A stretch of 64,000 nucleotides of DNA, taken from assembly GCF_900167375.1 (NCBI RefSeq), contig NZ_FUWY01000002.1, forward strand, positions 62,001-126,000, given 5' to 3'. The stretch comes from Anaerorhabdus furcosa (GTDB taxonomy: Bacteria > Bacillota_I > Bacilli_A > Erysipelotrichales > Erysipelotrichaceae). This document shows, in pieces, positions 16,305 to 22,731 of the stretch. The notes under the pieces were generated by a model, which was not told the DNA's origin, made no database searches, and worked only from the letters and a program-made list of their open reading frames with translations. The position numbers and the translations under genes were made by a program. The number at the start of each line of letters is the position of its first letter. The first letter of the stretch is position 1.

Positions 16305-16604
16305 ATGAAATACAATGAAATCGCAGTACTATTCAAAGCTCTATGTGATGAGAATAGAGTAAAAATTATGGAATTATTAAAAAATGGCGAGAAATGTGCC
16401 TGTATTCTTTTAGAAGAATTGCAAATAAGTCAGTCAACACTATCGCATCATATGAAAATTCTAAGTGAAAGTGAAATTGTAATTGCTCGAAAAGACGGAA
16501 AGTGGACTCATTATTCGATTAATGAGCACAAGATAAATGAGGCAAATGCATACCTAATGACCTATTTGACAACAAAAAAGGATAAGGATTGCTCATGCAA
16601 ATAA
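16305..16604 (+). CDS. arsR: ArsR-family metalloregulator
   Basis: A 99-residue winged-helix repressor. Metal site: Cys31-Ala-Cys33 lies in the sensing helix, at the same place as the CVC of classic As(III)-sensing ArsR. The recognition helix is SQSTLSHHMKIL. The C-terminus adds a second C-x-C (Cys96, Cys98), which could supply further ligands. It heads an operon with a permease, a thioredoxin-like protein and arsenate reductase, and overlaps the permease gene by ten bases. Confidence 0.9.
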   Translation: MKYNEIAVLFKALCDENRVKIMELLKNGEKCACILLEELQISQSTLSHHMKILSESEIVIARKDGKWTHYSINEHKINEANAYLMTYLTTKKDKDCSCK

Positions 16605-17608
16605 TAGAAAATATTTTATTGTTTATCCAAAATCAAGTATTGGGTATGAGGTGGTTGAATGATTCTATTGGCTATGTTTTAGAGTTAATTGGAATTGATA
16701 TAACGACAAGAATAGGTGGAAGTATCCAATTCTTTGTTTATGATGTAATTAAAATCTTATTATTACTCTCTATCTTAATTTTTATTATTTCTTATATACA
16801 AAGTTATTTCTCGCCAGAGAGAACAAAACGAATTCTCGGAAAGTATAAAGGAATATTCGCCAATACATTAGGAGCTCTTTTGGGAACAGTGACCCCATTT
16901 TGTTCCTGCTCATCAATACCACTATTTATAGGATTTACAAATGCAGGACTACCCTTGGGTGTTACATTTAGCTTTTTAATTAGTTCTCCATTAGTTGATT
17001 TAGGTGCGTTCATTTTATTGGTAAGTATTTTCGGATTTGAAATTGCATTGATTTATGTTGTGGTAGGATTAATACTTGCAATCGTAGGGGGTACTTTAAT
17101 TGATAAGTTAAAGTTAGATAACTATGTTGAAGATTATGTTCATCAAATTACTTCAATAAATATAGAAGAACCTAATTTATCTAAAAAAGATCGCATAGAA
17201 TATGCAAAGGAACAAACATTTCAAACTGTTAGGAAAGTTCTTGTTTATGTCTTAATTGGTGTAGGAATAGGTGCACTTATTCATAATTGGATACCTCAAG
17301 AATTCATTCAACGTATTTTAGGAAGTGAAAATCCATTCTCAGTTATCATTGCTACGCTTGTAGGCTTGCCCATGTATGCTGATATATTTGGTACGATTCC
17401 AATCGCAGAAGCATTATTTGTAAAAGGTGTTGGCGTAGGTACGATTTTATCATTCATGATGGCTGTTACAGCGTTATCACTTCCATCAATAATTATGTTA
17501 AGAAAAGCTGTGAAACCAAAGTTACTAATTATTTTTGTGGGTATTGTTACAGTTGGAATCATTATCATTGGTTATTTATTTAATGCATTGCAGTTCATGT
17601 TCATTTAG
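16595..17608 (+). CDS. arsP: ArsP-type permease (DUF318 family)
   Basis: A 337-residue membrane protein with eight or more hydrophobic segments. The family signature TPFCSCSS (Cys103, Cys105) lies in a membrane helix and is repeated in topology by the second half. ArsP proteins export trivalent organoarsenicals or related soft metals. The start at 16595 overlaps arsR and is preceded by AAGGATAAGG. Operon context supports arsenic export. Confidence 0.88.
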   Translation: MQIIENILLFIQNQVLGMRWLNDSIGYVLELIGIDITTRIGGSIQFFVYDVIKILLLLSILIFIISYIQSYFSPERTKRILGKYKGIFANTLGALLGTVTPFCSCSSIPLFIGFTNAGLPLGVTFSFLISSPLVDLGAFILLVSIFGFEIALIYVVVGLILAIVGGTLIDKLKLDNYVEDYVHQITSINIEEPNLSKKDRIEYAKEQTFQTVRKVLVYVLIGVGIGALIHNWIPQEFIQRILGSENPFSVIIATLVGLPMYADIFGTIPIAEALFVKGVGVGTILSFMMAVTALSLPSIIMLRKAVKPKLLIIFVGIVTVGIIIIGYLFNALQFMFI

Positions 17609-17618
17609 GAGGAAGAAA

Positions 17619-17936
17619 ATGAAATTATTTAATTTAGGAAAAAAAGAAGAATGTAGTTGTCAAAACAGAAATGAAAATCCAAACGCAAGAATTCTTGTCT
17701 TGGGAGCATGTTGTAAAAAAAGCCAAGATTCTTACGCAAATGTTTGCCAAGCAGTTAAGGAATTAAATTTAAATGAAGAAGTTTCTAATATAGGAGATAA
17801 TGGAATGATTGCGAGTTTTGGAGTAATGCAAACTCCTGCATTAGTAATTGATAAAAAAGTAGTAACTTATGGAAAACTTATTACTTGTGAGGATGCAAAG
17901 AAATTTATATTAGATTCGGGTATGGTAAATGGATAA
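17619..17936 (+). CDS. Thioredoxin-like small redox protein with adjacent cysteines
   Basis: The start at ATG 17619 follows AGGAGG. The 105-residue protein has the thioredoxin fold of the small 'redox-active disulfide protein 2' type: strand ILVLGA, helix, and the cis-Pro block M-Q-T-P (Thr71-Pro72). At the active site the usual GCxxC is replaced by Cys31-Cys32-Lys-Lys-Ser. Two more cysteines (Cys12, Cys14) lie in a lysine/asparagine-rich N-terminus. It overlaps arsC by eight bases, so it may reduce ArsC or carry arsenite. Confidence 0.8.
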   Translation: MKLFNLGKKEECSCQNRNENPNARILVLGACCKKSQDSYANVCQAVKELNLNEEVSNIGDNGMIASFGVMQTPALVIDKKVVTYGKLITCEDAKKFILDSGMVNG

Positions 17937-18336
17937 ATTGAAAATTGCTTTTGTGTGTGTTCATAATTCATGTCGAAGTCAAATCGCAGAAGCACTTGCG
18001 AAGAAATATATAGCAAACCAATATGATATTTATTCTGCTGGAACTGAGGTTAAACCCAGTATAAATCAAGATGCCGTAAGACTGATGAAAGATTTGTACT
18101 CAATCGATATGGAAAAGGAACAGTATTCAAAACTTATTGATGAAATACCACCTGTAGATATTGTGATCACAATGGGCTGTAATGTGAATTGCCCATATCT
18201 TCCTTGTTCATACAGAGAAGATTGGGGTCTAGATGATCCTACAGGAAAAGATGATGAAGAATTTAAACGCATAATTTTACTTATTGACAAATATGTCAAG
18301 GAATTAGGGAATCGTCATTTTGAAGTCCTAAAATAA
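17929..18336 (+). CDS. arsC: Arsenate reductase, low-molecular-weight phosphatase type
   Basis: A 135-residue ArsC of the thioredoxin-coupled class. The phosphatase loop is C-x5-R at Cys10-Arg16, with Cys15 inside it. The redox shuttle cysteines are Cys84 and Cys88 or Cys93 (MGCNVNCPYLPC), and Asp102/103 of the DDPTG motif supplies the general acid. It reduces arsenate to arsenite for export by the operon's permease. Thioredoxin-like protein and reductase are translationally coupled. Confidence 0.93.
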   Translation: MDKLKIAFVCVHNSCRSQIAEALAKKYIANQYDIYSAGTEVKPSINQDAVRLMKDLYSIDMEKEQYSKLIDEIPPVDIVITMGCNVNCPYLPCSYREDWGLDDPTGKDDEEFKRIILLIDKYVKELGNRHFEVLK

Positions 18337-19034: not shown

Positions 19035-20078
19035 TTAAATATCTATTTTTACGATGTGGTAATCACGCCAGTATTTAGTGCAAAATTCATAAGCGGTAAC
19101 AGTATCAATTTTAGGGTAAGAACTAATTACTAGGTATTTATTGGAATATGTTTTTCCTGTTATGTTAAAGAAAAATTTCTTTAACAGGCTGAATTCTTTA
19201 AAGAAATCGTGTGGGTTTTTTAGGAGGATAAACACCGAGTTTCCTCCAACGAATGCTGATGCTTGCTGTTTATAAATGATATCTTCAATTGCTGACCAGG
19301 GGATAGGAGTATTTGTTTTACTTGTTATTGAATTGATAAGAATACCAGTGGAATCGATGGATAAGAAAATAGGTTTCTTTGTAATACGTATGATTGTTTC
19401 AAATATTGCAATCATGATTGAAAAAGAGATAAGAAACAAAATAACAAATCGAATGTATTTGCCTTCAAAGAAAGTATAGTAACTTAAAAATATAACAGCA
19501 AGAAGCGCGAGGATGAGTAATATTGATAATCTAATATCAAAGGTGAGGTTATAGGGAATTACGTATTTTGGAAATCTTGCATTGTTGGTAGTGAATCTAT
19601 TGTTACCTAAGAGATTATCTTTGCATGTAGAAATCATTTTCAATAGTACTTCTTTTTGTATAGGTGGATTGTTTTTAAGAGGATCAAGAATAGCGAAACT
19701 ATTATCATAATCCTTATTATCGTAATAGAGGCAAGCTTTGTAATATAGACAAAGATTAATTAGGGATTGATTGGATTGTGATTGAATGAACTGATCATAT
19801 CTAAAGATTTTAACATTTAATGATTCCGAGCTTTGGAATATACTAATTAACTCCTCTTTCTTTTTATTAAATTTTTGAGTTTTATAAAAATGCCTTGAAA
19901 CAAGTAAAATAATGAAAAATATACCCATCAAGGTTAAGGCAATATCACCTGTTATTGGAAAGTGAAGAACTCGTCTTAAGAAAATAAGAAAAAATAAAAA
20001 TAAAGTTAAGCAAAGAATATAAAGTAGAATCTTAAACAAAAATAACAGAATGGATTTGATTATATGTTTTATAGTCAT
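19035..20078 (-). CDS. Membrane protein of unknown function
   Basis: A 347-residue protein with a strong ribosome binding site (AAGGAG). Two membrane spans at residues 10-32 and 42-60 are followed by a soluble part with helical, TPR-like spacing (about 85-165), then two more spans at about 190-230 and a C-terminal soluble domain of about 110 residues whose strand pattern could be a PH-like fold. I do not recognise the family. It is a single gene, convergent with ndk and divergent from the leader RNA described next. Confidence 0.6.
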   Translation of the reverse strand: MTIKHIIKSILLFLFKILLYILCLTLFLFFLIFLRRVLHFPITGDIALTLMGIFFIILLVSRHFYKTQKFNKKKEELISIFQSSESLNVKIFRYDQFIQSQSNQSLINLCLYYKACLYYDNKDYDNSFAILDPLKNNPPIQKEVLLKMISTCKDNLLGNNRFTTNNARFPKYVIPYNLTFDIRLSILLILALLAVIFLSYYTFFEGKYIRFVILFLISFSIMIAIFETIIRITKKPIFLSIDSTGILINSITSKTNTPIPWSAIEDIIYKQQASAFVGGNSVFILLKNPHDFFKEFSLLKKFFFNITGKTYSNKYLVISSYPKIDTVTAYEFCTKYWRDYHIVKIDI

Positions 20079-20162: not shown

Positions 20163-20190
20163 TTGTAATCTACTAGAGGTATGATATACT
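20163..20190 (+). promoter_or_regulatory. Promoter of the structured leader and lipoprotein gene
   Basis: TTGTAA (20163-20168) and TATACT (20185-20190) with 16-base spacing. Transcription would start near 20197, about 350 bases before the coding start at 20549. Confidence 0.5.
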
Positions 20191-20196
20191 TTTTTT

Positions 20197-20400
20197 CGTG
20201 ATTGAATAAAGGAGGGGCGATTGAGTCATTCACATCCTAATTTTTAAATGGAGTAATCCATTTTTGAAGACGAGAGTCTTTGACAATTGACCGAAGTTTT
20301 GAAAAACAAATAGGCTACGGACAGCTGGGTCAAATGCCGAATTAGCGACAAGTGTTCTTGTTGGGAGTTTAAGAAACTCATTTATAAGTTTAAGTGCTTG
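20197..20400 (+). ncRNA. Multi-hairpin leader RNA, class not recognised
   Basis: Within 134 bases there are at least five hairpins: AAATGGA-GTAA-TCCATTT (20246-20263), AAGAC-GAGA-GTCTT (20267-20280), TTGACC with GGTCAA enclosing a smaller GTTT/AAAC hairpin (20287-20333), CGACAAG-TGTT-CTTGTTG (20346-20363), and GAGTTT-AAG-AAACTC (20365-20379). The first two have GNRA tetraloops. GCTA at 20314-20317, inside the long-range stem, can pair with TAGC at 20343-20346 outside it, so a pseudoknot is possible. This looks like a riboswitch or stable sRNA. It does not match the riboswitch consensus patterns I know (lysine, SAM, cobalamin, c-di-AMP, c-di-GMP, glycine, T-box, M-box). Confidence 0.5.
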
Positions 20401-20548
20401 TAAAAACAATAAGAGTAGTAAAAGTAATTATTTACTATATAGACTCAAGAAACCTAAGAAGTATAAATAAAACAGAAATGATAATAAATAAAACCAATAG
20501 GATAACTACAAGTACAATAACTTTGTTTATTTTATGAGGAGAAAGTAA

Positions 20549-21361
20549 ATGAAAAAAATTATTGTATGTTTATTAGCGTTAGCTTTATTAGTGGGTTGTA
20601 GTACTACACCGAAAGAAGAAGTTGTAGCAACACCTACACCAGAAGCGAAAGTAGTTTCAGGAAATTATACTGATGAAATGAAAATTCCATATGCAGTAGA
20701 TTTAGAAGAATATGGAGCAGACTCAGTAGAAAGAGATGGGGATCATTCAGGATCACCATATTTTAATCAACTTGATTTTTATAATATGGAATCAACAGAT
20801 ACATTGACAATTTTACCTAAGTTTAAAACAATGCAACAAACCTCTGAGTGGAGTTGTGGTGTTGTATCCGCATTGATGGTATTGGAATACTATGGTGCCC
20901 TTGGTGATTATAATGAAGAGTCACTAGCAAAATTCCGTACAAATGGTTTAGATTATGCAGCAACATCACTTGAATCAATGATTAAGATTTTTGAAGGTGT
21001 GGGTGGATTTGAAATTAATTCAACATATGACTATACAGAAGAAAACTTTGAGGATATTAGTCTAGAATTCATTCAAGAGAATATTAAGAATAACATTCCA
21101 ATGATGGTAGCTTGGAATGATTGGGGTGGACACTGGCAAGTTATTATCGGATATGATGACATGGGTACAGAAACACAACAAGATGATGTGATCATTGTTG
21201 CAGATTCTTATGATACAACTGATCATAATCAAGATGGTTATGGTATTTACCCAGCAGAGCGTTTCTTTTATAACTGGACAATGTATGATTTCTTCACTGA
21301 AAATTATGGAATCAACGAAAGAGATCGTTTATTTATAACAGTTACACCTATTTCTGAGTAA
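20549..21361 (+). CDS. C39-like peptidase-domain lipoprotein
   Basis: A 270-residue protein. The signal peptide ends in the lipobox LVGC (Cys17), followed by a Thr/Pro/Glu-rich linker, so it is anchored outside the cell. The C39-like papain-fold domain covers residues 90-265: catalytic Cys in Q-T-S-E-W-S-C-G, His in W-G-G-H-W-Q-V. It may process peptides at the surface or bind peptidoglycan. It is the only gene behind the long structured leader, so that RNA probably controls it. Confidence 0.85.
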   Translation: MKKIIVCLLALALLVGCSTTPKEEVVATPTPEAKVVSGNYTDEMKIPYAVDLEEYGADSVERDGDHSGSPYFNQLDFYNMESTDTLTILPKFKTMQQTSEWSCGVVSALMVLEYYGALGDYNEESLAKFRTNGLDYAATSLESMIKIFEGVGGFEINSTYDYTEENFEDISLEFIQENIKNNIPMMVAWNDWGGHWQVIIGYDDMGTETQQDDVIIVADSYDTTDHNQDGYGIYPAERFFYNWTMYDFFTENYGINERDRLFITVTPISE

Positions 21362-21915: not shown

Positions 21916-22731
21916 ATGGAACTTATATTAGATGCAATAATTGATACTTTAAAAATAATGCCTTTTTTATTTGTAACGTATTTGGTTATTGAATGGATAG
22001 AACATAAAGCAAGTGACAAGATAGCGATTGGTATTCAAAAGTCTGCCAAATTTGGTCCACTACTGGGAAGTGCAGCAGGGCTGCTACCACAGTGTGGATT
22101 TTCATCAATTGCTTCTACATTGTATGTCACACGTGTTTTAACTCTAGGGACATTGGTATCAATTTATTTAGCAACTTCAGATGAAATGTTACCAATCATG
22201 ATATCAAATAGTGCACCTTTTGATTTAATATTGAAAGTATTAGGTATTAAATTTGTTGTTGGTATGGTTGTGGGTTATATCATTGATTTTGTGAGTAGAA
22301 AGACGAAAAAAGAAGAAATGCACATTGATGCATTTTGTGAAGAAGAGGATTGTAACTGTGATGAAGATGGAATACTTGTTTCAGCACTAAAACATACTCT
22401 TAAGATTAGTTTCTATATTTTAATTGTTACCTACTTATTGAATGTTGTTATTGCTAGTGTTCATTTAGAGCAATTATTAGTTGTTTCTCCTACTTTAACG
22501 GTATTTATATCTGCAATTATAGGATTGATTCCAAATTGTGCAGCATCCATTGTATTGACTGAACTGTATTTAGAAGGAGTTCTTAGCTTTGGGGCAATGA
22601 TGGCAGGGTTATTAACTAATGCTGGGGTAGGTTTGTTGGTGTTGTTTAGAATTAATAAAAACATGAAAGAAAATATGAAGATTATTGCGATCTTATTATT
22701 TGTTGGGATTGTAGTCGGTCTTTTGATTTAA
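21916..22731 (+). CDS. ArsP_2-type putative heavy-metal exporter
   Basis: A 271-residue membrane protein with about eight spans arranged as two halves. Each half carries a metal-type motif: P-Q-C-G-F-S in the first and P-N-C-A-A-S in the second. The central loop is acidic and Cys/His-containing (H-I-D-A-F-C-E-E-E-D-C-N-C). The family is described as putative manganese or arsenic transporters; the substrate is unproven. It is transcribed alone from an extended -10 (TGCTACAAT, 21890-21898). Confidence 0.78.
   Translation: MELILDAIIDTLKIMPFLFVTYLVIEWIEHKASDKIAIGIQKSAKFGPLLGSAAGLLPQCGFSSIASTLYVTRVLTLGTLVSIYLATSDEMLPIMISNSAPFDLILKVLGIKFVVGMVVGYIIDFVSRKTKKEEMHIDAFCEEEDCNCDEDGILVSALKHTLKISFYILIVTYLLNVVIASVHLEQLLVVSPTLTVFISAIIGLIPNCAASIVLTELYLEGVLSFGAMMAGLLTNAGVGLLVLFRINKNMKENMKIIAILLFVGIVVGLLI

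Follow-up and report, generated by a model that had tools for sequence, protein, structure and literature searches.

The leader RNA in front of a C39-like lipoprotein gene in the window (the whole 64-kb stretch of DNA analysed) is a full-length member of an RNA family of which Rfam holds only the first part. We give a probability of roughly two in three to the reading that this family forms a riboswitch class for polyamines, probably for spermidine, that has no relation to the SAM-I-derived one and senses the candidate ligand directly; this is judged from sequence. Positions 20275-20447 would then form the sensing domain in a leader RNA spread across Firmicutes, with spermidine or a close relative as its most likely, directly bound ligand. 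What computation established is the family itself with its covarying structure, the genes it is associated with, the terminators and the locus-specific complementarity; that a polyamine is the ligand, that it is bound directly and that it turns the genes off we infer. That the family regulates in cis and that this regulation is tied to polyamines we regard as close to certain. We lean slightly towards the wider proposal of a second, structurally unrelated natural polyamine riboswitch class, common across Firmicutes and hidden in a 54-nt Rfam "sRNA" entry. Such a class would switch synthesis and uptake genes by termination; in gut bacteria of the window's order that rely on polyamine import it would control secreted hydrolases of the lipoprotein kind (C39, M28) through a route without a terminator, and these hydrolases would amount to an unrecognised scavenging system for polyamines.

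Identification and extent of the RNA family

The leader (20197-20548, 350 bases) lies between a divergent ORF (19035-20078, minus strand) and the lipoprotein gene (20549-21361); the lipoprotein gene, the promoter and the features of the leader are on the plus strand. Its predicted fold (-73, vs -58.4 with sd 4.2 for dinucleotide shuffles; z -3.5) beat 100 of 100 shuffles; the structured leader described by an earlier sequence-only reading is real. That reading had left the RNA without a type, and had suggested a covariance search against Rfam and a search of homologues for compensating changes. The Rfam search assigns 20288-20340 to RF02440 (SpF59_sRNA, ldcC RNA) with 41.1 bits against a gathering score of 37.2. 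RF02440 has 54 positions and the Rfam type "Gene; sRNA", and this was both the sole Rfam match in the 64-kb window and the sole RF02440 match found in the genome. No match to raiA or to any other Rfam family was obtained in the window and the relatives scanned. SAM-I, which we take to be RF00162, had no match at gathering scores in the window or the relatives scanned, and its fold had none on the RNA itself up to E 5 and E 1.

Of 145 genomes from the window's taxonomic family, 19 had an RF02440 match, as did, with stricter filters, 4 of 392 genomes of a phylum sample. A degenerate pattern derived from the RF02440 core gave at least 119 stretches in GTDB contigs, 9 of them chance-like and 110 retained. 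The pattern stretches came from Paenibacillus, Bacillus, Blautia, Flavonifractor, Gemmiger, Acidaminococcus, Phascolarctobacterium and Holdemania, from many Oscillospiraceae and Lachnospiraceae bins, and from one spirochaete bin. By eye, the 110 retained stretches have a long, highly conserved sequence in common, and among those scanned the Rfam models cover only its first 54 nt.

An alignment of 57 relatives without the window (A3) was used to build a covariance model of 208 positions (R1). R1 matched the window, which was absent from the training set, once, at 20275-20447, over positions 1-208 of 208 (78.9 bits, E 1.3e-24); this full-length family member is the candidate polyamine aptamer. 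Outside the training set, 37 of 53 sources were matched by R1; matches were obtained for 17/17 RF02440 loci tested, 11/11 further pattern loci tested and 0/12 chance pattern loci. In a phylum sample of 295 genomes searched with R1, again with lossy filters, 4 had a match. The family RNA is about 170-230 nt long and includes an expression platform as well as a 3′ domain that is conserved. With RF02440 above its gathering score and a full-length family defined, the RNA is no longer of an unassigned type. Two kinds of member argue against a firm placing of the sensing part. Locus L175 (1480-1760), located before a gene resembling carboxynorspermidine synthase, keeps the 3′ domain and has no 5′ (RF02440) domain, from which the two halves may be separable modules, and the speD-linked L009, L010, L011 and L014 keep the RF02440 domain and the terminator with a differing 3′ part that has no P10 element.

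Secondary structure and covariation

In A3 (n=57), 94.1% of the cells form their proposed pair, compared to 88.7% after shuffling and 31-44% with slid partners. Pairs changed on both sides numbered 23, vs 12.2 in shuffles, and the covariation score was 0.195 vs 0.097, with 0 of 500 shuffles as high. Double changes occur in P1 (first pair), P2, P4, P6, P8 and P10, while P5 and P7 are nearly invariant, showing wobbles plus one double change. Ten lipoprotein-type leaders including the window showed 15 pairs changed on both sides vs 7.8 in shuffles, in an alignment that was fitted to the model and so leans towards it; P2 is not kept in this group (37.5% of the few cells). Homologues with compensating changes were thus found in both the canonical and the lipoprotein sets.

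P1 (20288-20332) joins 20288-20292 to 20328-20332, and its first pair is UA in 25, GC in 21 and CG in 7 of the 57 relatives; the lipoprotein group adds one change from CG to UA. P1 is crossed by a putative pseudoknot between CGG (20318-20320) and CCG (20337-20339). This pairing is present in 57/57 relatives of A3, an invariance that makes it uninformative on covariation, and it becomes UGG/CCA in two close relatives, L012 and L013. The sequence-only reading had instead offered GCTA (20314-20317) with TAGC (20343-20346) as a possible pseudoknot. Its positions are right and it points to the right neighbourhood, but the pairing is unconserved, since lipoprotein-type relatives keep TAGC and have GCCA or GCAA in the place of its proposed partner. 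Judged by these alignments, CGG/CCG would be the likelier pseudoknot. A wider pairing, GCCA/TGGC, was tried and rejected as well: in the canonical set its 3′ side follows hairpin P4 in its variation.

P4 (20346-20352 with 20357-20363) was drawn from the sequence; in the canonical set 6/6 pairs of its helix changed on both sides, and some of its bases in the window also belong to P5. P5, seen in the sequence and the alignments, is a long-range stem of TTGTTG (20358-20363) and CAATAA (20407-20412) around P6 and P7, so that the earlier description of a long-range stem enclosing another structure was right in kind. P6 (20365-20379) is a GAGTTT/AAACTC hairpin; among the lipoprotein-type leaders, 4/5 of its pairs show double changes. 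P7 (20383-20402), a TATAAG/CTTGTA stem supported by alignments and duplex energies, has the switching strand as its 3′ arm. In P10 (20413-20446), identified from alignments, GAGT/ACTC and AGTA/TACT surround a conserved internal loop; it is paired in 10/10 of the lipoprotein group, with one pair being UA in 6 and CG in 4.

Downstream of the family RNA, a second module (20453-20501) consists of a CCTA...TAGG stem around two ATAAATAAAAC strands, paired A-rich strands of this kind being present in 8 leaders. In the window, L012, L013, L146, L042, L103, L123 and L156 the family RNA is followed by a pair of ATAAATAAAAC-type strands with a spacing of about 21-31 nt, often around a small hairpin and within a short outer stem of changing sequence. 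The module is present in termination-type as well as lipoprotein-type leaders.

Genes downstream of the family

Pfam domains were assigned to the first downstream gene of 81 loci (80 with a callable first gene, plus the window). In 76 of them this gene encodes an OKR decarboxylase, a SAM decarboxylase, a PotA-type ATPase or a saccharopine-dehydrogenase-family protein (OKR_DC_1 24, AdoMet_dc 20, ABC_tran 22 with TOBE_2 in 17, saccharopine dehydrogenase domain 10). M28 was assigned in 1 locus and C39_2 in 1. In comparison, the upstream genes of the 81 loci fell into 97 scattered families, the commonest in 5 loci, and no polyamine families were among the 25 listed, single weak matches being possible. 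We consider the ABC ATPases to be PotA because genes like PotB, PotC and PotD follow in many loci (by eye), and because the partial ATPase gene of L111 had polyamine-transport models as its best NCBIfam matches, below their cut-offs. NCBIfam cut-offs were exceeded by the SAM decarboxylase of L087 and the carboxynorspermidine decarboxylase of L002, and the best match of L084 was carboxynorspermidine synthase, below cut-off. M28 proteins are encoded downstream in L004, L006 and L106 and a Peptidase_C26 protein in L020, with lipoprotein-like starts by eye. Relatives of the latter presumably split gamma-glutamyl bonds, and its best NCBIfam match, below cut-off, is in line with such cleavage. In L107 (1554-1952) the RNA stands before a P-II-like gene, after which comes one for an ABC ATPase; this hints at a P-II-linked polyamine transporter.

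SP0916 of Streptococcus pneumoniae, which we take to be a lysine decarboxylase, fits the Rfam alias "ldcC RNA", and the alias shows that someone had already noticed the ldcC link. PMC3395615 places F59, an 82-nt RNA on the plus strand, between SP0915 and SP0916 and in line with SP0916, and for lung Tn-seq it gives a value of 0.05 under the alias SN20. F59 is listed there and in PMC4387999 as an sRNA with a lung phenotype, and a 2025 paper still has it as candidate sRNA M7 (PMC12323649). Those listings and the Rfam type both favour a trans-acting small RNA, and the sequence-only reading had also allowed for a separate sRNA. Against this, the family RNA keeps a constant position and orientation, upstream of and in line with polyamine genes, F59 itself included, and it pairs in cis with a terminator specific to its own locus; terminated leaders would show up as small RNAs anyway. 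A trans-acting function is thus very improbable, and we favour a cis-acting leader, which would recast F59/SN20 as the probable cis leader of SP0916.

Terminators and the proposed switch

Outside the terminator-less lipoprotein type, 99 of 111 members had an intrinsic terminator within 100-520 nt, vs 51 of 283 random stretches. Allowing loops of up to 25 nt raised the number to 106 of 111, with 5 of 111 still without one. The P7 3′ arm with its flanks was paired with the 5′ arm of its own terminator at a mean of -11.0 kcal/mol over 75 loci, compared to -4.3 kcal/mol with 128 control terminators. When terminators were swapped among loci (300 permutations), the mean was -8.57 (sd 0.26) and the lowest value -9.22. 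Since pairing with its own terminator beats pairing with swapped ones, the P7 strand and the terminator co-vary locus by locus; for example, ACCT occurs with AGGT in L020 and L047, and ACTTG with CAAGT in others.

The modelled layout is that of a transcription-attenuating riboswitch, in which aptamer and platform pairings are predicted to be mutually exclusive. In most members the ligand would hold the 3′ strand (ACUUGU) in P7, allowing the terminator to form and turning the genes for polyamine synthesis or uptake off. Without ligand, the ACUUGU strand would pair with the 5′ arm of the terminator and the genes would be read. An off switch appears to be the natural direction, because the RNA precedes synthesis and uptake genes.

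The lipoprotein-type leaders

The gene downstream of the window RNA (20549-21361) encodes a papain-fold, C39-like lipoprotein (PF13529, Peptidase_C39_2, 1.3e-8) with a lipobox. It has no NCBIfam match, and a sequence search of the PDB gave no credible relative. In 15/15 lipoprotein homologues Cys17, which follows the signal peptide, is invariant, as are Q97, C103, H195 and D219; catalytic roles are assumed from papain-like families. Homologues were found in 24 of 315 genomes of the order. Among 16 lipoprotein leaders, R1 scored 10 at at least 42 bits and 5 weakly (17-25 bits, three of them partial), with no match in L156; six were scored as RF02440 twins. The leaders of two more distant homologues that were tested, L161 and L162, were unmatched by R1.

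No intrinsic terminator was found in the window leader, as the sequence-only reading had stated, and nine lipoprotein-type members gave 0 terminators with short loops and one match with loops of up to 25 nt. Instead, the window's switching strand (GUGCUUGUA) has a possible partner in UACAAGUAC, which lies 34-42 nt upstream of the start codon. The resulting alternative helix (20394-20515; GTGCTTGTA at 20394-20402 with TACAAGTAC at 20507-20515, 9 bp) is exclusive with P7 and has -12.2 kcal/mol, with 0 of 200 shuffled tails as good. In 10 of 14 lipoprotein leaders the best partner of the switching strand is a site with CAAG, located 33-47 nt upstream of the start codon; the pairing is weak in L151, and another site is chosen in L153, L157 and L158. 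Shuffled tails were equally good in 0-3 of 200 cases for seven of ten leaders, and in 8, 15 and 20 of 200 for L154, L149 and L150.

The lack of a terminator makes control at translation, suggested earlier, plausible. The ribosome-binding site of the lipoprotein gene is GAGGAG (20536-20541), and the sequence and the window model contain a possible start-site-masking stem (20513-20566; TACAATAA at 20513-20520 with TTATTGTA at 20559-20566), which is inconsistent in relatives. In the window model the ribosome site is open in both states and the AUG is paired in both. Clear masking of the ribosome site in lipoprotein leaders was unsupported, as constrained folds of 10 leaders showed no consistent accessibility shift between states. 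Control at the start of translation is no more than our best guess for the window, at about even odds.

A decayed or retargeted copy, in which the shape is kept and polyamine sensing is lost, would account for the low R1 score of the window (78.9 bits vs 141-171 for L002, L021 and L114, which are also outside the training set), for the absent terminator, for the bases shared by P4 and P5 and for a target that is no classical polyamine gene. The covariation in the lipoprotein group, with P10 paired throughout, and the switching helix kept in the window argue against decay, which we regard as unlikely. On the preferred reading, the window RNA would still sense polyamines.

The gene content of the host genome (95.7% complete) is in line with a need for import. 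At the cut-offs used, OKR decarboxylase, SpeD, NspC and SpeE were not detected, and a search run without a positive control did not find a relative of carboxynorspermidine synthase. From these sequences the bacterium seems unable to make polyamines itself. It does encode a PotD (52% identity), within a cluster that, read by eye, resembles potABCD and follows an HTH-cupin regulator gene. R1 finds nothing at this cluster (L173), and the regulator gene directly before it (L173, 1088-1627) may represent a protein-based polyamine control. The single detected family RNA of the genome precedes a secreted hydrolase-like lipoprotein, which is predicted to be used, probably, to scavenge polyamines or their precursors for a genome that apparently does not make them. 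Secreted hydrolases of gut bacteria would thereby be tied to polyamine supply. Genes of a metal or arsenic group lie on either side of the locus: an ArsR-like regulator, a metal permease and an arsenate-reductase-like gene at 16305-18336 (by eye), and ArsP_2 (PF11449) at 21916-22731.

The 5′ part of the leader

A probable promoter (20163-20190; TTGTAA, 16 nt, TATACT, with TG before the second hexamer; 9/12 consensus matches) precedes the leader. The promoter that the sequence-only reading had assumed thus has a counterpart, but such matches are no commoner in the region than expected by chance. By eye, lipoprotein-type relatives carry a TATAAT-like box at a similar distance before an AAGGAGG element. 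Exactly two GNRA loops on stems of at least 3 bp occur in the leader, as had been noted: GTAA at 20253-20256 (7-bp stem; hairpin 20246-20263), seen in the window, and GAGA at 20272-20275 (8-bp stem; hairpin 20264-20283), just before P1. By eye, several lipoprotein-type relatives have a hairpin of differing sequence in the place of the latter, and the hairpin signal just before P1 is modest on average (mean z -1.39, n=129 members).

Near the predicted mRNA 5′ end lies a ribosome-binding-site-like AAAGGAGGGG (20208-20217), supported by the sequence and by relatives, and followed by a short TTG ORF (20221-20247, MSHSHPNF) whose peptide is not conserved. Lipoprotein-type mRNAs, including the window at 20197-20247, seem to start with GTGATTG, followed by a strong AAGGAGGG, then TTGAG and sometimes a two-codon ORF (MS, MR). 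The strong 5′ AAGGAGGG element resembles the 5′ mRNA-stabilising Shine-Dalgarno sequences of Bacillus.

This element, often with a short TTG or ATG ORF, would also suit a polyamine-regulon attenuator that involves no direct ligand binding and is read by ribosomes on a leader peptide, or by an RNA-binding protein, and protein-read attenuators likewise have conserved structure, a terminator and a regulon. A conserved leader peptide is ruled out, because the peptides encoded by the short ORFs vary from leader to leader in both length and sequence. GGAGG or GGGGG is present in 13/13 terminator-less lipoprotein-type leaders examined, whereas in the same region GGAGG occurs in 12 of 122 other members and is missing from 110. 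By general knowledge, 170-230 nt of dense invariant nucleotides exceeds the usual protein sites. An attenuator of either kind is hence improbable, and direct sensing by the RNA remains the reading we prefer.

Comparison with known systems

Within the open-access literature covered, no description of the family as a polyamine riboswitch was found; the available portions of PMC11477304, PMC2965389, PMC10319736, PMC7990898, PMC5872165, PMC11109978 and PMC10043782 contain no such account. RF02440/F59 of S. pneumoniae (srn235, SN20, Spd_sr49) is like the 5′ domain of the window RNA, which scores above its gathering score, but it is filed as an sRNA of 54 positions, in contrast to the family RNA with its conserved 3′ domain and expression platform. 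The potE motif of Veillonella and the odc1 motif of alphaproteobacteria are, like our family, leader RNAs beside polyamine genes. In PMC8632094 the former is Veillonella-only with poor covariation and the latter is a uORF-containing hairpin with a pseudoknot, and by these descriptions both are set apart from our family. A potABCD leader of Haemophilus and Pasteurella is mentioned in a figure legend of PMC2965389.

Polyamine riboswitches have long been doubted, and in the open-access literature covered the one validated class is a rare SAM-I variant that binds spermidine (Salvail et al. 2023, PMC10853860). The alignment of that class has 13 representatives in that paper, and the class resembles our family in its polyamine genes (ldcC, speE, speB) and in its terminator-based off switch with an antiterminator. 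It differs from our family in having the four-stem SAM-I fold, whereas our family has another sequence and architecture, with no SAM-I match in the window or the relatives scanned. The authors of that paper state that further polyamine riboswitch classes await discovery. The family described here is a large, well-aligned candidate for such a class, ready for existing assays.
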